In this document: positions 1 to 56,059 of the stretch, one piece after another | How positions within the stretch are numbered: the stretch's first letter is position 1 | Layout: each line of letters starts with the position of its first letter | From: SAR324 cluster bacterium | GTDB taxonomy: Bacteria > SAR324 > NAC60-12 | Direction of reading: 5' to 3' | NCBI GenBank assembly: GCA_015232315.1 | Contig: JADFZZ010000004.1 | Coordinates: forward strand, 1 to 64,000 | Length of the DNA stretch: 64,000 nucleotides | Notes under the pieces: model-generated | Databases searched by the model: none | What the model was told of the DNA's origin: nothing | The model's input: only the letters and a program-made list of their open reading frames with translations | Position numbers and translations under genes: made by a program

Positions 1-389
1 CTCCTGAAGTTTTTGGTATTCATTCATGAGCGTTTCCATCTGATTCAGTAGTTTACGTAACGATGTTGGGGAAACTCCGAACTGCTCTTCGACATGAATT
101 CGCTTCAGAAAACTCGATATCCGTTCCGCTCCCTGACAACCCTTGATTCAAACTCATACAATACCGCCAGAAGCATTTTAACCTGCCATTCATCGCCGAC
201 CTGACTCGCCCAAAAAGAATACTCCGGATACTGATTTCTCTTGGACAAGGCGGTTTGTCCTCGTTGAACCTGTCCTACAGAAAGTCCGATCTCTGTGGCC
301 ATTTTCCGGATGGATGACGTGCCAAATTCCTTTATTCGTTCCAGGATACGCCAATCCTGTTGACGAACTTGCATGCTTTGTGTGCCCAT
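1..389 (-). pseudogene. Frameshifted transposase fragment (DUF6399-like)
   Basis: The minus strand opens with ATG at 389 behind a GAGAGG ribosome site and reads an N-terminal DNA-binding-like segment (IRKMATEIGLSVGQVQRGQ, then ALSKRNQYPE) resembling the start of DUF6399-type insertion-sequence transposases. The frame stops at 105-107. From about position 150 a second frame continues the same protein (EIKGCQGAERISSFLKRIHV, then EEQFGVSPTSLRKL) to the window edge, so one base appears to be missing near 150-158. The family call rests on remembered sequence resemblance. The break may be a disabling mutation or, less likely, programmed frameshifting. The 3' part lies outside the window. Confidence 0.6.
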
Positions 390-410
390 GGTTACCTCTC
401 TCAATTCCAA

Positions 411-778
411 GTGTTTGAGAGAGGTTCAATATTCATTTTTTTATCCCGAAGGAAGTCCTTTTTTCAAAAAAGTGTATCGGCTTACGTTGATAGCCCATCC
501 ACGAAAGAAAAAAGGCGCAGGATGCCTTCTCAGTGAAATACCGCGATACACTTGATCCTGAAGCCCATCACTGGGAACGCTGCGCGGAGGTCCTTTCCAG
601 AAGGAATATTATCAAGGTATTGAGTGAACTGTGGTAACAGGAGGTTATAATTTCTAAAATACACAGTTGATTGATTAAAATGGTAGTTTGCTTCATTGGA
701 AGGGAAGATGTTGGAAGCATTTTCGCAGGCTCCAAATCTGGTCTGGAGCCTGAATGGTCTATGGTTCAGAAAGCCTGA
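411..778. other. Intergenic region with a possible coding remnant
   Basis: No complete gene is visible here. A plus-strand open stretch of about 47 codons (494-637) has protein-like composition, for example DTLDPEAHHWERCAEVL, and ends in TAA, but has no start codon and no ribosome site. It may be the 3' end of a gene whose front was lost, possibly when the neighbouring transposase inserted. I do not recognise a family. Confidence 0.3.
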
Positions 779-2710
779 TTATTTCCCGGCTTTGGGATGC
801 ATTCCAGACTTGGGATGTGTTTCCGCATGAGTTTCTTCCAGGGCAGAGTCTTCAGCTTTGGAGGAAGCTTTGGCTTTGGTTGTTACAAGGATGACCCTGA
901 TTTCCGCGACGGTCAGGGTGTTGGTTTCCGCATCAAAGGCTCCTCTGGCAATCATGGTTTTTATATTGATGGCGTTTTCAAATTTCTGATTCAGCGCTTC
1001 AACGAAATTAGCGAAATCCGTGAAAGTTTGCAGAGTGCGCGCCTTACCGATCACAAACACACCTGTTCCACTGGCCGTCGGAACGATGGTGAACGTATTT
1101 CCATAGCTTGCCAGATCACTATTTGAGGGAAACAAATGATGATGTTTCCCGAATTCTTCAAGTGTCATATCTATTGCGATAGAACTGGCATCCGCGCTAA
1201 CAAACGGTTGGTTACTGCCTTGTTCTTTCCAGTCAATTTTTGCGGTAATCGCGACATTGCTCACATCAATCAGGGTTTGAGCCGAAAAAATTTCTCCCGC
1301 ATTGAAAAAGCCTTTGACACGAATCAAGCTTCCGTTTTCCAGGGCACTCACATCCAGATTGCTGGTATTGACCGTCAACGCATTGATTGAACTGATGTCA
1401 TACACACTGCTTCGGCGTTGATTGATTTCTTTGGTATCAAGAACCAGACTTCCAGAAGCAACCCCCTGCACCGTTCCTGCTAAATAGGACATCTGAATTC
1501 GGGCGGTTTGAGGAGCGGACATGACAAAGCCGTCTGCCTTTTCTGCCAGCGTTCCACTGATCCACAACAGTGTCCCCGGGAGTATTTCATCTTTGGAAAC
1601 GGTTTCCCTGCTCAACTGCTTGTTGACTTTGGTCAGATTGGTCAGATCAATCGTCACATGATCGTTGAAAACACAGGAACCATTACTGCGAACAATGGCC
1701 GCGCCCAAGACCACAATCTGGTCACCATCACGTTCAATCACACTACCCCGAACCACATCCAGGGTTCCATCTGGCACACTGCTTCCGACATAAACTTCTG
1801 CGGCCTGAATGGTTTTTGTTTCAATATCCATAGTGCCAACCACAATCACCCCTGTTGTTGAATCCTTTTCAGCAAGTGCCTGAAGTCCTGACTCAGCGTT
1901 GAATGCGATGCCATCAATTTCAAAGGTGGTTTCAGTCGAAGTATGAATCGTAATCTCGCCAAAATCACCTGACTTGACCCACAGTGGCCGAACCTGTAAC
2001 TCAAACGTACCAGCGGCAGTATCAGCGGATTTGAACAACCCCCGTATCCGGTTGTCTTTCAGGTTGGTCGGATTGATTTCTGTGACCAGCATGGGTGTTA
2101 CTGTGACCACAGGAGTTCCGGAAGAAAGATCAACCGCATTGGTTGCTTCCAGATCAAAATCGAGTTGCAGATGGGAGGGAACCCCTGGAACAATCACCAG
2201 AGGATGATCTCCGGACAGTTGCATTTCCATACTCAAATCACCATTCAGCGATGTGCCGTCGCTATTGAGCATTGTCGCTACCCGGGCAACGCCATTCAGT
2301 TCAACAAGGATCTCGGAATTAGAATAATCCAGAGTCATTTTTCCGCTGACATACTTTCCCGGAGGAACAGTTGCCGCAGTGAGTAACTCTGTCATATTGG
2401 TGTATTGAGCAAAATCAATCCGGCTGGAGAGTGGCAGAACTTCCACCTGTGCCCCATCGGCTTTGGTGAGTGACAAGGATTTTACATCCACAGTGTACGT
2501 TAAAAAATCACCATCCGCATCCGTCAATCCGACCAGCAACGTTCCAGTTTCATCGCTTGTGGAAATTTCCTTGTCTCCAGTTTTTGACGGTGCGTCTTCA
2601 GCCGTAACATTGAATGTTTCGCTGTTCATTTCACCACACCCCATGAGAAAGGCCAGCACCAGCATGACAACAATAAAAACATGTTTTTTTGTTCCCTTAT
2701 TATTTTTCAT
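779..2710 (-). CDS. Large lipoprotein with DUF4382-like domain
   Basis: A 643-residue protein with a lipoprotein signal: basic start, hydrophobic stretch, then the lipobox LMGCGE, so the mature protein should be lipid-anchored outside the inner membrane. Residues about 55-190 resemble DUF4382 (GTLLVGLTDADGDFLTYTVD, a beta-rich domain of bacterial lipoproteins). The rest is a series of beta-rich segments with the rhythm of DUF5666 repeats (VRGSVIERDGDQIVVLGA). The Lys/Ala/His-rich C-terminus is low complexity. It is divergent from the TIGR02147 regulator at 2964, and the shared intergenic region holds GTGAAC palindromes, so the two may be co-regulated. Substrate or ligand is unknown. Confidence 0.8.
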   Translation of the reverse strand: MKNNKGTKKHVFIVVMLVLAFLMGCGEMNSETFNVTAEDAPSKTGDKEISTSDETGTLLVGLTDADGDFLTYTVDVKSLSLTKADGAQVEVLPLSSRIDFAQYTNMTELLTAATVPPGKYVSGKMTLDYSNSEILVELNGVARVATMLNSDGTSLNGDLSMEMQLSGDHPLVIVPGVPSHLQLDFDLEATNAVDLSSGTPVVTVTPMLVTEINPTNLKDNRIRGLFKSADTAAGTFELQVRPLWVKSGDFGEITIHTSTETTFEIDGIAFNAESGLQALAEKDSTTGVIVVGTMDIETKTIQAAEVYVGSSVPDGTLDVVRGSVIERDGDQIVVLGAAIVRSNGSCVFNDHVTIDLTNLTKVNKQLSRETVSKDEILPGTLLWISGTLAEKADGFVMSAPQTARIQMSYLAGTVQGVASGSLVLDTKEINQRRSSVYDISSINALTVNTSNLDVSALENGSLIRVKGFFNAGEIFSAQTLIDVSNVAITAKIDWKEQGSNQPFVSADASSIAIDMTLEEFGKHHHLFPSNSDLASYGNTFTIVPTASGTGVFVIGKARTLQTFTDFANFVEALNQKFENAINIKTMIARGAFDAETNTLTVAEIRVILVTTKAKASSKAEDSALEETHAETHPKSGMHPKAGK

Positions 2711-2734
2711 AACGCCTCCGAATTAAATGATCAG

Positions 2735-2933
2735 GTGAACATCTGATTTAAACCTTAATTTGTTAAACTCATGCTTAACATGAGTAAAATACTATACATC
2801 TATGCATTAACAATAAATCCAAATCAATATTTGACATGATTTTTATGTTCACTATTGGTGAACACCATGATATACGGTTAGCACATCATTCTCTGAAAGA
2901 TAAGTATGGTTTATGGAATCGTGTTCACTGAAC
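2735..2933. promoter_or_regulatory. Cluster of GTTCAC/GTGAAC operator-like sites
   Basis: The divergent intergenic region contains a GTGAAC half-site at 2735-2740, a perfect inverted pair GTTCAC (2847-2852) and GTGAAC (2858-2863) with a 5-nt spacer, and the perfect 11-bp palindrome GTTCACTGAAC at 2923-2933. A TTGACA hexamer lies at 2831-2836, just upstream of the inverted pair. Repetition of one half-site between the lipoprotein and the regulator gene suggests an operator bound by the adjacent TIGR02147 protein. This is an inference from position and symmetry. Confidence 0.5.
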
Positions 2934-2963
2934 CTGATATGAACATCAACGCGGGAATTCATC

Positions 2964-3836
2964 ATGAACAGCCTGAAATATGAGGATCTCAATCTGGATA
3001 TCTACCAGTACCAGGATTGCAGATCGTTGCTGAAAGATTATTTTGAAAAATGTCAGGAACTGGATAAACGTTATTCATTCCGGTATTTCAGCAAAACCCT
3101 TGGACTCAGCTCTCCCGGATACATTCAGGCAATGCTCCAGGGTAAAAAACCGGTTTCAGACAGGTTGATGGAAAACATGATCCATCTTCTCGGTTTGAAA
3201 AAAGAAACGAGGGCCTATTTTGAAATGCTGGTGCGACTGGACCGGGTGGACTTCAACAGTCCGCTATATCAGGAATATTATCAGGCCATTCAGACCATTC
3301 GTTCCAAACATCTACAGGTGAAATCTCTGGATGAGGCCCAATACAACTGCATTTCATCGTGGTACCATTGGGTGATTCGTGAAATGGCCATGATGCAAGG
3401 TGCCAGCCTCAAAGTTCAATGGCTGAAGCGTTGTCTCAATCGCTTTGTTCCTATCACTGGAAAACAAATCATGCGCATCGTCGAGGATTTGAAAGAGGCC
3501 AGACTGCTGGAAGAAACAGATGGAAGCCTTGTGGTCAAGGACCCTGTTGTGAATCTGGGTGATGAAACCAGTGCGATGATGTTGAAACGCTATCACATGG
3601 GCGCCATGGAGCAGGGTATTTTAAGCCTGAACAATAAAGCAAAAGACAGAGATTATGGTTCTGTTCTGGTTGCGACCAATCCTGAGAAAATTCAACTGGC
3701 CCGTGAAAAACTTAGAAAAACCCGCAGGGAAATCATGGAAATTTTACAGGCATCGCCAGAAGAAGCGTCCCTGGTGGTTTCCTGGTCCTATCAGTTTTTT
3801 CCTGTGGCAGAACTGGTCGAAAACGCTGATGAATAA
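2964..3836 (+). CDS. TIGR02147 family putative regulator
   Basis: A 290-residue soluble protein. The N-terminal 100 residues carry the family pattern: CRSLLKDYFEKCQELDKRYS, then FRYFSKTLGLSSPGYIQAML and KETRAYFEMLVRLDR, which looks like a helix-turn-helix-type module. The C-terminal part (HWVIREMAMM onward) matches the DUF4423-like region of the same family. TIGR02147 proteins occur in Fibrobacter, Bdellovibrio and related bacteria, often beside lipoproteins, and are thought to be regulators. Here the gene lies between two lipoprotein genes, 15 bp before the second, so an operon with 3852 is likely. Biochemical function is not established. Confidence 0.8.
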   Translation: MNSLKYEDLNLDIYQYQDCRSLLKDYFEKCQELDKRYSFRYFSKTLGLSSPGYIQAMLQGKKPVSDRLMENMIHLLGLKKETRAYFEMLVRLDRVDFNSPLYQEYYQAIQTIRSKHLQVKSLDEAQYNCISSWYHWVIREMAMMQGASLKVQWLKRCLNRFVPITGKQIMRIVEDLKEARLLEETDGSLVVKDPVVNLGDETSAMMLKRYHMGAMEQGILSLNNKAKDRDYGSVLVATNPEKIQLAREKLRKTRREIMEILQASPEEASLVVSWSYQFFPVAELVENADE

Positions 3837-6218: not shown

Positions 6219-7025
6219 CTATTTCAAATATGTCAAATAGTGGTTTGGCGGCAATATTGGACTCTCCTCATCTTGAATGACACAGGACATCCAATATGGT
6301 CCAGCATATTTCATGAATAGTTCGTATTGCTCTTCCGTGGAAGGTGCCTCAAAGTAATATAATTTGTTTATGACCATATTTTCTATGTGAACCTTAAATT
6401 CTTTGGGCCAACATTTTGGATGACCAAATGAAAAAATTTTCCCTCCAGTTTCAACAAGTCGTGTTAGAAATATTTCACCGCTCTCAAATTCAGGTATTGA
6501 ATTTTCAATTTTTATGATTTTTCCCGTGAACAGTTCACGGAATGTTATTGTTTTTTTGGTGCTGGCTATTTCTTGATAAAGTCCTAACCGGGAAATTCTC
6601 ATCTGATCTATAAAATATTTACAATCGTTGAATAGTTCTTTGTTTGTTAAAAATTCTTCAAAACAGTCCAAAACCGTTTTTTGATCAGCAAAGGGAAAAT
6701 CACAAAAGATCCACGATTGCACAAAGACTTCATCATCAAACATTTCATCATGAATAAACAATCGGTCTAACTCTTCCCAACATTTCGATAATGAAGGAAA
6801 CTCCTTTTCATATATTGTGATCATGGCAAATGATGTTAATAATCTAAAACTTCGAATTAAGTATTCCCACTCTTTTGGACCTCTAATAGGTGCATTTAAA
6901 TAACGATCCACATCTTTGAAGGCTTTCAATTCTTTTAGACTTAATTGATCTATATCAATGTTCATTCCATTTAATGTTTCAATCCATGTAGGCGAAGCCT
7001 GTTTTTTCGTTCTGATTTTTTTCAT
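6219..7025 (-). CDS. Hypothetical 268-residue protein
   Basis: A complete minus-strand gene with lower GC content than its neighbours, suggesting acquisition by transfer. The start at 7025 follows an AGGAAAAAA stretch. The protein is soluble, begins with a basic MKKIRTKKQ segment, and is helical in its first 170 residues with many aromatic residues (EVFVQSWIFCDFPFADQ). The C-terminal part (FRELFTGKIIKIENS, IFSFGHPKCWPKEFKVHIEN) reads like a small beta domain seen in plasmid- or phage-borne hypothetical proteins. No catalytic motif is evident and I do not recognise the family. Confidence 0.6.
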   Translation of the reverse strand: MKKIRTKKQASPTWIETLNGMNIDIDQLSLKELKAFKDVDRYLNAPIRGPKEWEYLIRSFRLLTSFAMITIYEKEFPSLSKCWEELDRLFIHDEMFDDEVFVQSWIFCDFPFADQKTVLDCFEEFLTNKELFNDCKYFIDQMRISRLGLYQEIASTKKTITFRELFTGKIIKIENSIPEFESGEIFLTRLVETGGKIFSFGHPKCWPKEFKVHIENMVINKLYYFEAPSTEEQYELFMKYAGPYWMSCVIQDEESPILPPNHYLTYLK

Positions 7026-7139
7026 TTTTTTCCTGATTCATTGTTTTTAATTTAAATCATGAGTCAGAGGAACCCGAAGACTCCATCCGCTCACAGGTTT
7101 TTGATCCGGAGTGAATGCGAAGGAACATCAATTTTCATG

Positions 7140-8081
7140 TCACACTTGGGGAATCCAAAAAGGGCCATCTTTAAAGTTGATCCTGTTTAATTCACTTTTT
7201 AATGTACTTCTCAACCACTGATGCATAGAATCAAATTTTCTTCGTTCATGCCATACTAAAGAAAAATTCAGTAGTTGGGCCTGAAATGGAAGTTCAAAAT
7301 AGGCGATCTTTCCATGGGCTTTATAGGTTTGGGCTAAAATACTTGGAGCGGTTAAGATCAGGTCACTTTTAGAAGTGATGTCAAACGAAGTGGAAAAATT
7401 AGGTACCTTGATGGCTACCTGTCGCCGCAAACCTTTGTTCTCAATTCCCATATCGATCAATCCCTTGCCCGCACCGATCACCATAGTCAGGATATGCTGA
7501 TAGCCCAGATAATCGTTTAACGCTAAATCAGAACTCAAAATCGGATGATCTTTTCTGACAATGCCGACCAAATGGTCTTGGAACAAATGCGTCTGGTAAA
7601 TCCCGAGCGGCGAATTAAACAGGACGCCAATCGCAATATCAATGCTATTTTGCTCCAACTCTTTCAGTGTATGAACGGTCCAGTTCACAACTTCTATTTG
7701 AATTTGAGGAGCCATTGAATGCAGCTTGATGTAGATATCGGATAATATCGGAAAACTGGCGAAATCCATGGTTGCGATTTTGATTGTGCCCGTTGCGGTT
7801 GCAGGGGAAAAATTCGGTTGCTTAATGATTTTGTCTACAGATTGAAGCGTGTCTAATAATTGAACTCTTATTTCTTCAGCTCTGGGCGTTGGAATTAAGC
7901 CTTTGGACGCACGGATGAATAACGGATCATTCATTAATTCCCGCAGTCTGGCCAATGTCCTGCTCATGGCAGATTGACTGATTCCTAACTGTTTAGCGGC
8001 TTTACTGACATTTTGTTCTTCCAGGAGTACCTGTAAACTTACCAGTAAATTGAGGTCAATATTTCGAAGAGGATATTTCAT
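7140..8081 (-). CDS. LysR-family transcriptional regulator
   Basis: 313 residues. The N-terminal winged helix-turn-helix is typical (DLNLLVSLQVLLEEQNVSKA, then LGISQSAMSRTLARLRELMN), with LFIRASKGLIPTPRA leading to the linker helix. The rest is the periplasmic-binding-protein-like effector domain, including IKIATMDFASFPIL. It belongs to the NodD/LeuO-like subgroup by its opening motif. The gene is divergent from the molybdopterin oxidoreductase at 8213 with a 131-bp gap, the usual arrangement for a LysR protein controlling its neighbour. The effector is unknown. Length is normal for the family. Confidence 0.9.
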   Translation of the reverse strand: MKYPLRNIDLNLLVSLQVLLEEQNVSKAAKQLGISQSAMSRTLARLRELMNDPLFIRASKGLIPTPRAEEIRVQLLDTLQSVDKIIKQPNFSPATATGTIKIATMDFASFPILSDIYIKLHSMAPQIQIEVVNWTVHTLKELEQNSIDIAIGVLFNSPLGIYQTHLFQDHLVGIVRKDHPILSSDLALNDYLGYQHILTMVIGAGKGLIDMGIENKGLRRQVAIKVPNFSTSFDITSKSDLILTAPSILAQTYKAHGKIAYFELPFQAQLLNFSLVWHERRKFDSMHQWLRSTLKSELNRINFKDGPFWIPQV

Positions 8082-10740: not shown

Positions 10741-11214
10741 ATGGCAAAAATTGAAGAAATTCTGCAAACAGAAGTGCTGAAAAACCTGGAACTGGACAAA
10801 ATTGTGAAGGTTCCCAAATCCATGTCGATGCGTGACACGATCACCAAGCTCAACGATTCCCGAATTCAGACAGCGCTGGTGACTGAAAATGACAAAACGG
10901 TTGGCATATTGACACAAAGCCATGTCGTTCAAAAAATGGCTTTGGGGAATGAGGCCTCGCTGTCTCAGTCTGTAGAAAGTGTGATGTTTCCCATCACAGG
11001 TAAATTGACGGCGAATTCAACGCTGGCTGAAGCGATGAGCCACTTGAAATCGCACCGGCAGAAATCGTTGCCGGTTATTGACGATCAGGGCAACACCGTT
11101 GGAGTTGTTTCATACAAAACACTGGTGCGTTTCATTGCCGCACGGTTCTCAGACAAGGTTTATAACCTGCCCCCCAATTTACATCAAACCAGTATGGCCA
11201 AAGAAGGGGCCTGA
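10741..11214 (+). CDS. CBS-domain protein upstream of KorA
   Basis: 157 residues made almost entirely of two CBS motifs: SMSMRDTITKLNDSRIQTAL with LVTENDKTVGILTQSHVV, and STLAEAMSHLKSHRQKSLPV with VIDDQGNTVGVVSYKTLVRF. The ATG at 10741 is chosen because GGGAGAAACT precedes it; an upstream in-frame start lacks a ribosome site. CBS pairs bind adenine nucleotides and sense energy state. The gene is 47 bp upstream of the 2-oxoacid oxidoreductase alpha gene, whose beta partner carries its own CBS pair, so this free CBS protein probably modulates that enzyme. Confidence 0.8.
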   Translation: MAKIEEILQTEVLKNLELDKIVKVPKSMSMRDTITKLNDSRIQTALVTENDKTVGILTQSHVVQKMALGNEASLSQSVESVMFPITGKLTANSTLAEAMSHLKSHRQKSLPVIDDQGNTVGVVSYKTLVRFIAARFSDKVYNLPPNLHQTSMAKEGA

Positions 11215-11261
11215 AATTGTTGATACACTTTAATTCCAAAGCACCTTGACCTAGAGGTTTC

Positions 11262-13100
11262 ATGACAACCACCAATGTTAAACGTATCGAACTGGACACA
11301 GTGAATATCCGTTTTGCGGGAGACTCCGGAGATGGAATGCAACTCACTGGAAGTCAGTTCACCCACACTTCCGCACTTGTAGGCAATGACATCAATACCT
11401 TTCCTGATTATCCTGCTGAAATCCGTGCACCAGCCGGAACACTTCCCGGCGTTTCAGGGTATCAACTCAGTTTTTCAAATCGTGACATCAGAACCCCGGG
11501 CGATAAGGTCAATGTTCTGGTCGCCATGAATCCGGCCGCGTTAAAAGTCAACCTGGCAGATCTCGAACCGGGCGGGATTCTGATTGTCAACTCTGACAGT
11601 TTCAGTACCAACGATCTGCGAAAAGCGGCGTATGACACCAGCCCGCTGGAAACAGGAGAACTCAAGGGTTATCGAGTGATTCAGATTCCGATAACAACAC
11701 TGACCATCAAGGCCGTTGAAAGTACGGGTATTTCACGAAAAAACGCGGGCCGCTGCAAAAATCTGTTTGCGTTGGGCGTGAGTTTCTGGCTGTTTGATCG
11801 TCCGCTCGAACATACCATGGAATGGCTCCAGGAAAAATTTGGCAAAAAACCTGACATTCTCAGCGCCAATGAAGCCGCGCTCAATGCCGGTTATAATTAT
11901 GCGCTCACCGCGGAAATTTTTAATGATCATTACAAGGTTCAACCCGCGGTTCTACCTCCTGGACATTATCGTCAGATCACCGGAAATGAAGCGTTGGCTC
12001 TTGGTGCTGTGGCGGCATCGGTTCAGGCAAAACTTCCAATGGTGTATTCGAGTTATCCGATCACGCCGGCTTCAGATGTGCTCCATGAACTTTCGCATTA
12101 CAAAAATTTTGGCATCAAAACGTTTCAGGCTGAAGATGAAATCGCCGCCATGTGTTCCACCATCGGTGTGGCTTTCGGCGGATCACTCGCTCTGACTGGT
12201 ACGAGCGGTCCCGGAATGGATCTGAAAAATGAAGCGATGGGATTGGCTGTCATGACAGAACTTCCAATGGTCATCATCAACGTCCAGCGTGGCGGACCTT
12301 CCACAGGTTTGCCGACAAAAACCGAACAGGCTGATCTGCTGGCCGCCATGTATGGCCGCCATGGTGAATGTCCCATGCCGATTCTGGCCCCCGCGACTCC
12401 CGGTGAATGTTTCAACATCATGCTGGAAGCCTTCCGGATTGCGCTCAAATACATGACCCCTGTGATCGTGCTGAGTGATGGATACATTGCCAATGGTGCG
12501 GAACCATGGTTGTTGCCTGATGTTGATCAACTTCCTGAAATCAAATCTTCGTTCGCGACTGATCCTGAAAAATTCACGCCTTATACCCGTGATCCTGAAA
12601 CATTGGGCCGATTATGGGCAATTCCGGGAACGCCCGGACTGGAGCATCGTCTCGGTGGTATTGAAAAAGACAGTAAAAGCGGGAATGTGAGCTATGACCC
12701 GATGAATCATCAAAAAATGATGGAGACCCGTGATGCCAAAATTCGAGGAATTGCCAAGGATATTCCGGATGTCGAAGTGCTTGGTTCAAAATCAGGAAAA
12801 CTGCTGGTTTTGAGCTGGGGCAGTACCTATGGCGCGGTGGCCTCAGCGGTGGAAGATCTGCTGAAACAGGGACAATCGGTAGCAATGGTTCACTTGCGCC
12901 ACATGTTTCCCTTCCCGGCCAATCTTGGAGAAGTTCTTAAAAATTACGAAACAGTACTGGTGCCTGAACTCAATCTCGGGCAATTGTCACGGCTCATCCG
13001 GTCTGATTATCTGATTGATACGGTTTCGTACAACAAGGTGCAGGGTAAACCGTTTCTGATTTCCGAAATCCGGAATAAAATTCTGGAAATTCTCGCTTAA
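11262..13100 (+). CDS. korA: 2-oxoacid:acceptor oxidoreductase, alpha (gamma-alpha fused) subunit
   Basis: 612 residues. The N-terminal third is the gamma domain (VNIRFAGDSGDGMQLTGSQF, then FPDYPAEIRAPAGT), followed by the alpha/pyrimidine-binding region (VYSSYPITPASDVLHELSHY, FQAEDEIAAM, LTGTSGPGMDLKNEAMGLAV). This is the gamma-alpha fusion of KorA-type 2-oxoglutarate or other 2-oxoacid:ferredoxin oxidoreductases, which convert a 2-oxoacid and CoA to acyl-CoA and CO2 while reducing ferredoxin. The beta subunit follows 10 bp downstream. The exact substrate cannot be read from sequence. AGAGG lies before the ATG. Confidence 0.9.
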   Translation: MTTTNVKRIELDTVNIRFAGDSGDGMQLTGSQFTHTSALVGNDINTFPDYPAEIRAPAGTLPGVSGYQLSFSNRDIRTPGDKVNVLVAMNPAALKVNLADLEPGGILIVNSDSFSTNDLRKAAYDTSPLETGELKGYRVIQIPITTLTIKAVESTGISRKNAGRCKNLFALGVSFWLFDRPLEHTMEWLQEKFGKKPDILSANEAALNAGYNYALTAEIFNDHYKVQPAVLPPGHYRQITGNEALALGAVAASVQAKLPMVYSSYPITPASDVLHELSHYKNFGIKTFQAEDEIAAMCSTIGVAFGGSLALTGTSGPGMDLKNEAMGLAVMTELPMVIINVQRGGPSTGLPTKTEQADLLAAMYGRHGECPMPILAPATPGECFNIMLEAFRIALKYMTPVIVLSDGYIANGAEPWLLPDVDQLPEIKSSFATDPEKFTPYTRDPETLGRLWAIPGTPGLEHRLGGIEKDSKSGNVSYDPMNHQKMMETRDAKIRGIAKDIPDVEVLGSKSGKLLVLSWGSTYGAVASAVEDLLKQGQSVAMVHLRHMFPFPANLGEVLKNYETVLVPELNLGQLSRLIRSDYLIDTVSYNKVQGKPFLISEIRNKILEILA

Positions 13101-50019: not shown

Positions 50020-50583
50020 TCAGAAAAGTTTTGATGCCATATCAATGAGGCTTGTTCCACCTGTGAGTAGGGGGCCAAGACTGGGGAGAGCCTTTCCTAC
50101 AACAGAAACCAGAGAAGAAATTCCTTTGCACATTTCTGTATATTGTCCTTTTCCACCTGCGACTACCGCCAGATCAGAATCGCTCAATTCTCCATAAAAA
50201 TCAGGATTTACCGGCATTACCAGATGCAATTGATTTGGAGTGTTGGCATAAATCCTCAATTCTCCGGGAAATCCCAATCCTAATGATTCCTGAACCGCCT
50301 CATGAGGGTTTGACAGCAAGCGTTCACGAAATGCCGCATCGTCAAGAGCCTTACGAGAGACTCTGCCAACCGGATCATCCCCCCACACCGCATCTTTGGC
50401 CTGTGCTTCATCAAGCAGTACAAAATTCATGGTATCCAGCGTATCCTGATGAATCTGGACTTCCATATTCTCAGGCAACGATTGCCCCATTTGTGCCAAC
50501 GCCTCTTTCGGATTGCTGAACAACAGTTCTCTGAATGAAGTATCCGCCCAAGTTTTCTCAATAATTTGTTGATATAGTTCCAT
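50020..50583 (-). CDS. RiPP precursor with tandem NHLP-type leaders
   Basis: 187 residues from ATG 50583, behind AGCAGGTG. It contains two nitrile-hydratase-like leader modules in tandem: residues ~5-59 (WADTSFRELLFSNPKEALAQ ... VQIHQDTLDTMNFVLLDE) and ~72-125 (LDDAAFRERLLSNPHEAVQE ... LRIYANTPNQLHLVMP). A leader-peptidase site ELSDSDLAVVAGG (132-144) follows, ending in Gly-Gly. The predicted 43-residue core (KGQYTEMCKGISSLVSVVGK, then Gly/Ser/Leu-rich to LIDMASKLF) is hydrophobic with a single Cys at 152. NHLP leaders are known from precursors of ribosomally made peptides, which are normally modified and exported by C39-peptidase transporters; none is in the window. Confidence 0.85.
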   Translation of the reverse strand: MELYQQIIEKTWADTSFRELLFSNPKEALAQMGQSLPENMEVQIHQDTLDTMNFVLLDEAQAKDAVWGDDPVGRVSRKALDDAAFRERLLSNPHEAVQESLGLGFPGELRIYANTPNQLHLVMPVNPDFYGELSDSDLAVVAGGKGQYTEMCKGISSLVSVVGKALPSLGPLLTGGTSLIDMASKLF

Positions 50584-50995: not shown

Positions 50996-52735
50996 ATGAA
51001 TAGATTCAAACAGACCGTTTTTCAAATCGTTTTTCTGATGGGAATGGCACTGGCGTTTGGAAGGACAACATCACATGCCGCAGAAACACGAGGTTTTAAA
51101 ACCGTCATAAAAAACGACAAAGGGCAGGATATTGGATTTTATTCAGGAAGTTATGCGCTTCTGATCGGTGTGAGCGATTATACTGCCGGTTGGCCTGATC
51201 TTGAAAGCATTTCATCAGAACTTGAAGAAGTAGCCGTCTCGCTGAAAGAAAAAGGGTTCAAGGTTGAATTGGTGTTGAATCCAGACAGTCGGCAACTTCC
51301 AAAGGCCTATGAGGACTTTATCAAGAAATATGGCTATGATGTGAATAACCAGTTATTGTTTTATTTTTCTGGTCATGGGTTTACCAGAAATAATGGTTCA
51401 AAAGGCTATCTGGTACCTGCTGACGCACCCAATCCCACTGAAAATGAAAAAGAGTTTTTGCAGAAGGCTCTCAACATGAGCCGGATTTTGAACTGGTCTC
51501 GAGAAATGGAAGCCAAACATGCTTTATTTCTGTTTGACAGTTGTTTTTCTGGAACCATCTTTAAAACAAGAGCGTTGCCCAAGGTTCCTCCCCACATTAC
51601 TGAAGTCACTTCAAAACCCGTAAGACAGTTTATCACGGCAGGAAGCGCTGGCGAAGAAGTTCCGGCCCGCAGTGTTTTTACTCCGGCTTTTGTTCGCTCC
51701 TTGCGTGGAGAAGCTGATGTGAATCGTGATGGATATGTCACGGGAACAGAACTTGGTGTTTATTTGCGGGAAAAAGTCATGAGTTATCAAACCGGACAAA
51801 CCCCGCAATATGGAAAAATACGTGATCCGGAACTGGATGAAGGGGATTTCGTGTTCATAGTGCAGAATGGGGAAATACCAACGACGGTGTCTGCCTCAAC
51901 AGAATTTTCACTGGATGATCTGACTTCGCAGGAAAAGGCTAAATGGGAAAAATATCTCCATGAAATGAAACAGGCACTGGAACAGGTTCAGTTGTATGAA
52001 CAGGAATCTGGGTCGCCAGAACTCAAGGTGATGGCCTGGCAACGGTTTATTGATGCTTATGACAGCAATCATCCATGGTCTGACGAAGATGAAAAGTGGC
52101 GAGAGCACGGAAACCAGCAAAAAATCTGGTGGCAACAACAAATCAGCAATGCTGAAATCACCCTCGCAAATGAAATCTGGACAGAGCCACAAACCGGCAT
52201 GCGTTTCGTGAGGGTGGAAGGTGGACCTTTTTCAGAAAAAACATGGGTTGGGCAACATGAGGTTTCAGAATCACAATGGGAAGAAATTATGGGAAAACTG
52301 CCCGGTGATTCGCACGGAGCCATGCATCCCGTCCAGGTGAAAGACCTTGAATTGATCCATGAGTTTATCCATAAATTAAACCAGTCGCATCAACTGGAAG
52401 GTCCGTTTGAATTAATAAAACAGAAACAGTGGGAATACGTCTGCCGGGAAGGTGGAACCCAAACAGGAATGAGCAATTTCGCAAATCCAAAGAAAGTGAA
52501 TTTCGGGAAAAACAAAGGAATGGTGATGCCCGTGGATTCATTTGAACCGAATGTTCTCAACTTATACAACATGCAGGGTAATGTCGCGGAATGGGTGGAA
52601 GAAGGACTCCTCATGGGTGGAGACTGGATGTCGGCACCCAACGAAGTCCGTTGCGATTCCATAAAAAAAATGAGCGGATTTTTTGAAATGCTGGCTTATG
52701 ATGGTGGCGGATTCAGACTCATCCGAACGCCATAA
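50996..52735 (+). CDS. Exported caspase-like (C14) protein with FGE-sulfatase domain
   Basis: 579 residues from ATG 50996, chosen because it gives a signal peptide (MNRFKQTVFQIVFLMGMALA, then FGRTTSHA); in-frame ATGs at 50960 and 50987 are possible. Residues ~45-270 are a caspase fold: YALLIGVSDYTAGWPDLES, catalytic His in FYFSGHGF (H127) and Cys in LFDSCFSG (C183). The C-terminal ~190 residues are a formylglycine-generating-enzyme/sulfatase-modifying-factor-like domain (MRFVRVEGGPFSEKTWVGQH, MQGNVAEWVEEGLLMGGDW, GGGFRLIRTP), usually a binding or hydroxylase fold. The whole protein would act outside the cytoplasm. It is first in an apparent three-gene operon. Confidence 0.88.
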   Translation: MNRFKQTVFQIVFLMGMALAFGRTTSHAAETRGFKTVIKNDKGQDIGFYSGSYALLIGVSDYTAGWPDLESISSELEEVAVSLKEKGFKVELVLNPDSRQLPKAYEDFIKKYGYDVNNQLLFYFSGHGFTRNNGSKGYLVPADAPNPTENEKEFLQKALNMSRILNWSREMEAKHALFLFDSCFSGTIFKTRALPKVPPHITEVTSKPVRQFITAGSAGEEVPARSVFTPAFVRSLRGEADVNRDGYVTGTELGVYLREKVMSYQTGQTPQYGKIRDPELDEGDFVFIVQNGEIPTTVSASTEFSLDDLTSQEKAKWEKYLHEMKQALEQVQLYEQESGSPELKVMAWQRFIDAYDSNHPWSDEDEKWREHGNQQKIWWQQQISNAEITLANEIWTEPQTGMRFVRVEGGPFSEKTWVGQHEVSESQWEEIMGKLPGDSHGAMHPVQVKDLELIHEFIHKLNQSHQLEGPFELIKQKQWEYVCREGGTQTGMSNFANPKKVNFGKNKGMVMPVDSFEPNVLNLYNMQGNVAEWVEEGLLMGGDWMSAPNEVRCDSIKKMSGFFEMLAYDGGGFRLIRTP

Positions 52736-52773
52736 CATTAATCTACAGGCTAACCCCCTTTTGTCAGGCTCGT

Positions 52774-53535
52774 ATGACATTCATGAAAAAATGTGTTTCA
52801 CTGGTGTTTTTCGTGTTGCTTTCTGTTCAATCAGCAACAGCGCAGGACTCCTTGTATGACTTTCTGAAAAATATGGATTCATTTCTGGAAGATGTTCATT
52901 CAAATAGTTCAGGTTCTTCTTCGAGTGATTTTCAAACAAATGAGATGGATCAGTTTGAGAATGATTCCTCTGCTCCTGACAGCGTGTATGATTCTTATGC
53001 GCCAGCGACTCAACATAATCATGGGCAGTTCAAATTCATTAGCAATGTGAGTGGCCCCTTGACATTATCACAGGGACGGACTGAGCTGGAATTAACGCCC
53101 CAAATTATTGGGATTGGCGGCAATTATGTGTTTCCATCCAATCTGGGACTTGGGTTAACGTTACAAAATCTTAAAGCAAAAGAATCAGAGCTTGAAATGG
53201 AAACCAATACCCTGTCAATGGATCTTGGTTATTCCTGGTATTCACGGTCCATTCCCCTCACTGTTTTTGGAGGAGCAGGCCTGCTTTTGATGAACACGCT
53301 GGAGGTCACGTTGTCTGGTGCCAACAGTGAGACGGTCAGTAACGAATCCTCTGGTGAACTGGATGACATGCTGTTTTTTATCGGGGTGGGCTATGTTTTA
53401 CAGAAATGGGAATTTCTACTGGAATATCGCCAGACATCTTTTAATTATGCCTATGACATCTCATTTATCGGAAATGATGTGGATTTTGGCGCGGAACTCA
53501 CCAGTTTTGTTTTTGGTGCAGGAACTAAATATTAA
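52774..53535 (+). CDS. Outer-membrane-type beta-barrel protein
   Basis: 253 residues. A signal peptide (KKCVSLVFFVLLSVQSATAQ) precedes a Ser/Asp/Asn-rich segment (~25-75) and then alternating hydrophobic beta strands typical of small outer-membrane barrels (LELTPQIIGIGGNYVFPSNL, SMDLGYSWYSRSIPLTVFGG, WEFLLEYRQTSFNYAYDISF), ending in the aromatic-terminated VFGAGTKY common in barrels. The first ATG at 52774 has a weak site; ATG 52783 is an alternative. It is 38 bp after the caspase-like gene and 18 bp before the lipoprotein gene. Function unknown. Confidence 0.75.
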   Translation: MTFMKKCVSLVFFVLLSVQSATAQDSLYDFLKNMDSFLEDVHSNSSGSSSSDFQTNEMDQFENDSSAPDSVYDSYAPATQHNHGQFKFISNVSGPLTLSQGRTELELTPQIIGIGGNYVFPSNLGLGLTLQNLKAKESELEMETNTLSMDLGYSWYSRSIPLTVFGGAGLLLMNTLEVTLSGANSETVSNESSGELDDMLFFIGVGYVLQKWEFLLEYRQTSFNYAYDISFIGNDVDFGAELTSFVFGAGTKY

Positions 53536-53553
53536 TATTTTGAGAGGAGGACT

Positions 53554-54852
53554 ATGAGCAGGCAAACAGCAATGAAGACCAAAGACTGGATTAGCCAATT
53601 TCCATTATGGATGGTTTCGATCATTTTAATTACCGGATCCGTTGGGTGTACGACAGTTTTTCCGACTTTTGAAAACAGCAATCAGTTTTTTATGGAACGA
53701 ACTGTTGACCAGATTGAGGTTGGCAACAAACTCAAACAAAAATTACCCGCAGGGAGCACTGTCGCGGTTCGATCCATTGAAAAAGACTTTACTTCAGACC
53801 GTCCCATTGTCGCGTTGATTGAAGACCAGATGATCAAATCCTTGTCTGAAAATGGTTACAAGGTGATGGAACGTGATGAGAACTCTGTGTTTCATCTGAG
53901 TCGGGAACGTATGACCAATGGCAATTTTTCAGTCATTTTACGCAAGGAGGATAAACTCCCTGTTCCTGCGGAAACCAGGGTGGGCGTGTTGAGTATCGGC
54001 GTTGTGAATGAGAAAGACGATAAAAAAGACAAATCAGAGGATGAATATTTCAAGGTCATTCCCACCAAATTAAAACCCGCTGATTATCTGCTGAGCTATC
54101 GGATTCAGGAACTGGGAATTGTGTATCAGCGAATTCCCAATAATGATGAAGAAAAGAAACGGCTTGGAATGATTCGTGTTCATATCAGGGTGCAGGATAC
54201 CAACACCGGCGCGATTGTTTATGCGGATAACCTGCAGGGAGAATTGCAGGATATCATTCCGTCCGCGCTGGTTCGTCAGTTGAGAAATTTTCGCTACAGT
54301 CCATTTCCTCATACCTATCCTGAACAACCGGGAGGGCAGGACCGTGATATCAGGGAATACTCAGGTGAAGAAGACCGCGGATATTTTGTGGCAGTGGGAT
54401 TTCCACAATTGGGCGGCGGTGCAACCATGCCACCGGCAATGCTTGAATTCGGTTATGATTTCCGTGGAAATGGACGGGTTGGCATCGAAATGTTCAACGG
54501 TTCAGAAAAATCAACCGACGCACGAATCGGCAAACCTGATTTGAACCGCAGCACCACCTTGATCACTTATGCCTATCCCATGATGAATCTGGGGTACAAT
54601 TTTGTTAAATTTGTACCCTCCTTCGGACTGGGAAATATGACAGTGGATGTGGTGGAACACAAAAAAGTGGGTGGTGTCAGCACCATTGAAGTGAAGGAAA
54701 AAACAGGTATTGGCTTTAAAGGCTCAGCCGGCGTGGAAGGGTATCTCTTCTGGAATTTGGCTATTCGTGGTTTCTGGGATCTGAATATTGGTCCCGGGGC
54801 ACTCGATGGCATGTTCCAGCAATTGGGTGTGAAAGTTATTTACCGCTGGTAA
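53554..54852 (+). CDS. CsgG-like lipoprotein with C-terminal barrel-like part
   Basis: 432 residues, ATG 53554 behind GAGAGGAGG. A hydrophobic signal ends at the lipobox GSVGC. Residues ~50-250 resemble CsgG-type lipoproteins (AGSTVAVRSIEKDFTSDRPI, ALIEDQMIKSLSENGYKVME, IRVHIRVQDTNTGAIVYADN). The C-terminal ~150 residues have beta-barrel-like strands ending KVIYRW. CsgG forms an outer-membrane export channel, so this protein may export or anchor material; the extra C-terminal part differs from CsgG. It is the last gene of the caspase operon. Confidence 0.75.
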   Translation: MSRQTAMKTKDWISQFPLWMVSIILITGSVGCTTVFPTFENSNQFFMERTVDQIEVGNKLKQKLPAGSTVAVRSIEKDFTSDRPIVALIEDQMIKSLSENGYKVMERDENSVFHLSRERMTNGNFSVILRKEDKLPVPAETRVGVLSIGVVNEKDDKKDKSEDEYFKVIPTKLKPADYLLSYRIQELGIVYQRIPNNDEEKKRLGMIRVHIRVQDTNTGAIVYADNLQGELQDIIPSALVRQLRNFRYSPFPHTYPEQPGGQDRDIREYSGEEDRGYFVAVGFPQLGGGATMPPAMLEFGYDFRGNGRVGIEMFNGSEKSTDARIGKPDLNRSTTLITYAYPMMNLGYNFVKFVPSFGLGNMTVDVVEHKKVGGVSTIEVKEKTGIGFKGSAGVEGYLFWNLAIRGFWDLNIGPGALDGMFQQLGVKVIYRW

Positions 54853-55057: not shown

Positions 55058-56059
55058 ATGAAACCATCAGGTGTAATGACCATTGAGCGCTACATTCTGG
55101 AAGCGGAACATAAATTTCCAGGTGCCACCGGTAAACTTTCAGCCGTGTTGCAAGACCTGACTCTTGCATTCAAGATTATTCACAGAGAAGTCAGCAAGGC
55201 TGGTCTGGTGAATATCCTTGGCGTGGCAGGTAAAGAAAATGTGCATGGAGAGGAGGTCAAAAAACTGGATGTGTTTGCTGATGAAGTCATTGCGATCACC
55301 ATGGAAAACACAGGTCATTTGTGTGTGATGGCGTCTGAGGAAAACGAGGATGTAATCCACATTTCAGAAAAGTATCCCAAAGGTAAATATGTGCTGCTGT
55401 ATGATCCACTGGATGGGTCGTCCAACATTGATGCCAACGCCAGTATCGGTACGATTTTTTCAATCTATAAACGTGTGACCCAGACAGAGGGCAAAGGCAC
55501 TCTGGAAGACTGCCTGCAACCGGGATTTCAGCAGGTTGGCGCAGGATATTGTGTCTATGGTTCAAGCACGATGCTGGTTTATACGGCTGGCGATGGCGTG
55601 CATGGATTCACTTTGGATCCAAGCATTGGTGAGTTTCTCCTGTCTCACGAAAACATTCGAATCCCACAACGAGGAACCTATTACAGTGTGAATGAAGGGA
55701 ACCGCCGCTATTGGGATGATTCCATCAAAAATTATGTGGATTTTCTCCAGGAAGAAGACAAGGCGTCCAAACGGCCCTACAAAAGCCGGTATATCGGCTC
55801 ACTGGTTGCCGACTTTCACCGAACCCTGCTGTATGGTGGAATTTTCATGTATCCTGCGGACAGCCGTGCGCCTCATGGAAAACTTCGTCTGCTGTATGAA
55901 GCCAATCCGATGGCCATGCTGGTGGAACAAGCAGGTGGCGTTGCGACAGATGGTCAAAAAAGGATCCTCGATATTCAGCCAACAACACTGCATCAGCGCA
56001 TCCCGTTGTATATCGGAAGCTATGATGATGTGCAACAATGCATGAGTTTCAAGTCCTGA
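55058..56059 (+). CDS. fbp: Fructose-1,6-bisphosphatase class I
   Basis: 333 residues, matching the ~332 of E. coli Fbp. Characteristic segments are [40 protein letters not shown] with the metal-binding Asp and Asp-Gly-Ser-Ser, [12 protein letters not shown] and the substrate-binding [27 protein letters not shown]. It hydrolyses fructose 1,6-bisphosphate in gluconeogenesis. It is a single-gene unit with a candidate promoter upstream, convergent with the sigma-54 activator gene; start at the first in-frame ATG by homology. Confidence 0.95.

Follow-up and report, generated by a model that had tools for sequence, protein, structure and literature searches.

The three close co-directional genes at positions 50996 to 54852 of the window (the whole 64,000-nucleotide stretch of SAR324 cluster bacterium DNA analyzed here, from a genome of 5.25 Mb) are interpreted, with slightly better than even confidence, as encoding a periplasmic, probably Ca2+-dependent paracaspase-type protease with a degenerate FGE-type tail, co-transcribed with two lineage-specific outer-membrane proteins. 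The protease is an ordinary member of a large, multi-phylum family of exported caspase-like proteins, and the two outer-membrane genes located 3′ of it are lineage specific, having been seen beside no other sampled relative's caspase. A known family is present in a genome-specific neighborhood.

The open reading frames and their translations place all three genes on the + strand. The first (50996..52735) encodes, from an ATG at 50996, an exported caspase (C14) protein of 579 aa with a C-terminal FGE-type domain, as assigned by matches to PF00656 and PF03781 and by a structural model. Gene 2 (52774..53535) encodes a small outer-membrane beta-barrel protein of 253 aa with a signal peptide, and gene 3 (53554..54852) encodes an orphan lipoprotein of 432 aa with a lipobox cysteine at residue 32 and a barrel-like C-terminal half. 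The intergenic gaps are 38 bp between the caspase gene and gene 2 and 18 bp between genes 2 and 3, so that the closely spaced run of caspase, barrel and lipoprotein genes described in an earlier note was borne out to the coordinate. The next + strand gene, which on inspection by eye resembles a fructose-1,6-bisphosphatase gene, begins at 55058 and lies 205 bp past gene 3. As pattern scans of the three-gene stretch for promoters and terminators gave counts no higher than in shuffles, the operon call is drawn from spacing and strand, which suggest that the three genes are co-transcribed.

The caspase protein starts with a signal peptide (residues 1 to 28, ...TTSHA/AE; 50996..51079, +), detected in the sequence, by a heuristic predictor and as a helix at residues 2 to 22 of the model. 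The caspase domain (about residues 53 to 290; 51152..51865, +) matched Peptidase_C14 (PF00656) at 3.6e-15 and 56.7 bits, against a cut-off of 21.4 bits; the nearest NCBIfam model was that of the EACC1-associated caspase, with a score under its cut-off. The catalytic residues His127 (in SGHG; codon 51374..51376, +) and Cys183 (in DSCFSG; codon 51542..51544, +) were invariant, together with Asp181, in 44 aligned family members. The model built with this alignment had a mean pLDDT of 81, with values in the high 90s across most of the caspase core. MALT1 paracaspases were the closest solved relatives both by sequence (1.6e-7, phmmer) and in a fold search with the modeled caspase part (Z of 23.6 and, across 195 residues, an rmsd of 2.2); animal caspases scored lower (Z of about 20 to 21). 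With a domain above cut-off, a His-Cys dyad and a predicted caspase fold, the protein is a caspase-like C14 protein, and the signal peptide and intact dyad noted earlier are both confirmed. The protein would be exported by Sec to the periplasm and would there cleave its substrates with the His127-Cys183 dyad. Orthocaspases cleave after positively charged residues (PMC6426788), and as Asp181 occupies the position of the acidic S1 residue of MALT1, cleavage probably occurs after Arg or Lys, by analogy with metacaspases and paracaspases.

An EF-hand-type loop, DVNRDGYVTGTE, is present within the caspase domain (residues 241 to 252; 51716..51751, +) and is a candidate Ca2+ site. Asp241 and Glu252 were invariant, and Asp245 and Gly246 at least 90% conserved, in the 44 sequences; the Pfam match to EF-hand_1 was weak (E of 0.074). 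A loop of this type with invariant Asp and Glu recurs across phyla. Almost all members from archaea and bacteria are reported to retain a calcium-linked Asp in their p10 part (PMC6426788). The loop suggests Ca2+ control of the caspase, and from what is known of metacaspases and paracaspases the activity is probably Ca2+ dependent through this loop.

The C-terminal FGE-type domain reported in the earlier note is present but not complete. The match to FGE-sulfatase (PF03781; about residues 402 to 579, 52199..52732, +) was significant at 6.7e-10 but covered only profile positions 61 to 193 of 255. The domain is also diverged, scoring 108 bits against a family profile compared to 174 to 299 bits for the other members, a range that leaves out one copy clipped by a contig end (50 bits), and in the alignment it was without two segments present in other family copies. 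No conserved Cys pair was found near the C-terminal end in 40 family domains, in an alignment that held no bona fide FGE enzyme; formylglycine-forming activity is therefore unlikely in these domains. The default reading is a binding role, in which a degenerate C-type-lectin-like fold would serve for binding or spacing rather than for formylglycine formation. A diversity-generating retroelement acting on this tail was also considered and was dropped because the 3′ end was not found a second time in the source genome.

Relatives of the caspase were collected as the best 80 related loci from many phyla plus about a dozen relatives within the phylum. Genes in these loci were called by simple scoring of open reading frames rather than by a trained gene finder, and many loci were on short contigs, so that some neighbors lay beyond contig ends. 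A C-terminal FGE-type domain was found in 40 of 92 sampled members, with further members clipped by contig ends, and a signal peptide was predicted in 70 of 89 by a crude, home-made predictor. Caspase-FGE fusions were published in 2012, accounting for 33 of 671 prokaryotic metacaspases, with N-terminal helices considered likely signal peptides; OmpA domains were present in 14 metacaspase operons (PMC3501461). The earlier note had proposed an unusual proteolytic system dedicated to the cell envelope. Export is supported by the signal peptide of the caspase and by the neighbors' own signals, but such fusions are widespread and already published (PMC3501461), and the view of the system as unusual and dedicated is not supported.

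No homologue of gene 2 or gene 3 was detected beside the caspases of about 90 sampled relatives. The gene order is hence not conserved among the sampled caspase loci, the very outcome that the earlier note had named as counting against its proposal. In a Pfam scan of 79 proteins, of which two came from the window and 77 from the related loci, the families that recurred were DUF4384 (8), C14 (6) and FGE (5), and no barrel or CsgG family was present among the 25 families listed. DUF4384 was noted, among other places, at positions 383 to 3587 of locus L042. Two or more exported caspases were found head to tail at each of three loci (L142, 6110 to 12048; L153, 5681 to 12179; L117, 7812 to 12526), two of those in L142 and in L153 being caspase-FGE paralogues.

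These neighborhoods bear on whether the three genes are close by chance, that is, whether a standalone exported caspase is merely followed by unrelated outer-membrane genes. Most family members have other neighbors or none, consistent with chance, as is the lack of any recurrent barrel or CsgG family. On the other hand, the single strand, the short gaps and three consecutive envelope-targeted products fit an operon, and the neighbors of such caspases were modestly enriched in exported proteins: export signals were predicted for 34 of 71 co-directional neighbors within 150 bp and for 143 of 513 other genes in the same loci (Fisher p of 9e-4, with the crude home-made predictor and uncorrected for phylogeny). 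Gene 2 provides a further point for chance. It matched OMP_b-brl (PF13505) at 2.3e-6 and 28.4 bits, 0.3 bits short of the cut-off of 28.7, which agrees with the outer-membrane barrel assignment made earlier. Weak matches to it (E of 4e-7 to 2e-4) were found in seven SAR324 genomes of the phylum; six of these relatives sit at one recurring locus, different from the one described here, and no caspase was seen near any in the seven stretches examined by eye from open reading frame starts. Overall, chance closeness is considered possible but on the doubtful side. In the favored reading, genes 2 and 3 would be co-transcribed with the caspase gene as local partners, anchors or substrates of its product and not as parts of a conserved machine. 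As partners are not conserved among the sampled relatives, the case for a partner role is one of adjacency, and the partnership is possible.

Gene 3 has a good ribosome-binding site (GAGGAGG) and a lipobox, SIILITGSVGC, that fits a PROSITE-type pattern. Its C-terminal half is called barrel-like from strand alternation (z of 1.9, compared to −0.05 for the caspase domain) and a terminal Trp. No family match was obtained in Pfam or NCBIfam and no meaningful match in the PDB, and homologues were absent from 52 genomes of the phylum, a scan of genome contigs and plasmids. Two marginal matches in another phylum (E of 3e-4 and 6e-4), short and located within open reading frames of 2,670 and 732 aa, were judged to be chance. 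A single-sequence AlphaFold model had a pLDDT of 30. The description of gene 3 as a CsgG-like lipoprotein with an extra barrel-like part is thus upheld for the lipobox and, by alternation and the terminal Trp, for the barrel-like part, but not for the CsgG likeness: neither CsgG (PF03783) nor FlgO (PF17680) was matched by gene 3 or anywhere in the source genome. A profile-profile comparison with a set of FlgO-type proteins scored 19.5 against a maximum of 16.0 in 15 shuffles (hhalign, Prob 0.9%), giving at most a hint of resemblance in a sensible register.

The earlier proposal was that genes 2 and 3 export or anchor the caspase by CsgG-like transport, as a dedicated proteolytic module of the envelope. 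Export signals on all three proteins are in line with it, as is the way gene 3 aligns, weakly but in a plausible register, with proteins of the FlgO/CsgG type, but gene 3 has neither a CsgG, FlgO or LpoB family match nor a homologue, the order is not conserved and a Sec signal requires no dedicated exporter. This proposal is regarded as improbable. A lineage-specific envelope module, in which an undescribed lipoprotein-plus-barrel fusion and the partner barrel would hold the periplasmic paracaspase-type protease, sense the outside and trigger proteolysis inside, is likewise given only a small chance.

The gene adjoining the caspase on the other side (50020..50583, −) encodes an NHLP-type RiPP precursor (TIGR03793; 5.4e-31, 106.3 bits against a cut-off of 50.9) with an internally duplicated leader region; it was judged to lie outside the unit. 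Seven NHLP genes on four contigs were found in the source genome, the other six at 6919 to 7569 and 7577 to 8218 of L065, 7099 to 7719 of L066, 7667 to 8299 of L067, 2466 to 3080 of L068 and 8812 to 9435 of L069. All seven precursors have two tandem leader-like halves and a GGK cleavage site (V-A-GGK in six, V-S-GGK in one), followed by a core with one conserved Cys and, in most, a Gly-rich C-terminal end resembling LGPxxTGG. No obvious modification enzyme was seen beside any of the seven. A complete NHLP exporter is present on contig C16 (L220, 5388 to 10693), comprising a TolC-like protein, an NHLM HlyD protein (3.7e-117) and a peptidase-carrying NHLM ABC transporter (1,094 bits); no precursor adjoins it, and a radical SAM/SPASM gene lies beside it (10765 to 11871, −).

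The idea that the caspase is a leader peptidase or maturation factor of this peptide draws on the divergent gene adjoining it. Of the seven scattered NHLP genes, though, this one alone is next to a caspase, none being found beside the other six when neighbors were inspected by eye from open reading frame starts, and the GGK leader end fits the C39 peptidase/ABC exporter on C16. NHLP genes are, moreover, often far from their own modification and export genes (PMC2887384), and hence the adjacency is best read as chance. A maturation role is very unlikely, and the RiPP gene is almost certainly a chance neighbor unrelated to the caspase. The divergent NHLP-type precursor claimed earlier was recovered, but its link to the caspase was not.

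Exported caspase-FGE proteins occur in many phyla, keep the dyad and the EF-hand-type loop and tend to adjoin exported proteins. Should the outer-membrane proteins prove to be true partners, they would provide a first handle on the targets of periplasmic bacterial caspases.

Comparison with known systems places each element of the locus. The NHLP/NHLM system (TIGR03793, TIGR03794, TIGR03796; PMC2887384) has its leader family, GG cleavage site and exporter in common with the source genome, whose precursors differ in having two leader-like halves each and in being scattered away from the exporter. Gene 3 shares with CsgG/FlgO/LpoB-type lipoproteins a lipobox and a short stretch resembling 'ADYLLSYRI...VRVHIRVQDTNTGAIVYA' but differs in the lack of a significant family match and in its barrel-like C-terminal half. 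Gene 2 shares a barrel-type sequence and signal peptide with OMP_b-brl (PF13505) barrels but has, behind its signal peptide, an additional linker of about 55 residues that is rich in Ser and Asp. The caspase-domain fold and D-x-C dyad context are common to the caspase and MALT1 paracaspase (PDB 4i1r, 3v4o), whereas the window protein is bacterial and exported, is without death or Ig domains and has the additional EF-hand-type loop. A parallel in architecture is seen with the metacaspase/orthocaspase-FGE fusions (PMC3501461; also PMC4933709 and PMC6426788), which have the same C14 domain with an intact HC dyad, a C-terminal FGE-type domain and an N-terminal export signal and are sometimes in operons with outer-membrane proteins; the window protein differs from these in its shortened and diverged FGE-type part and in the two lineage-specific genes that lie 3′ of it.
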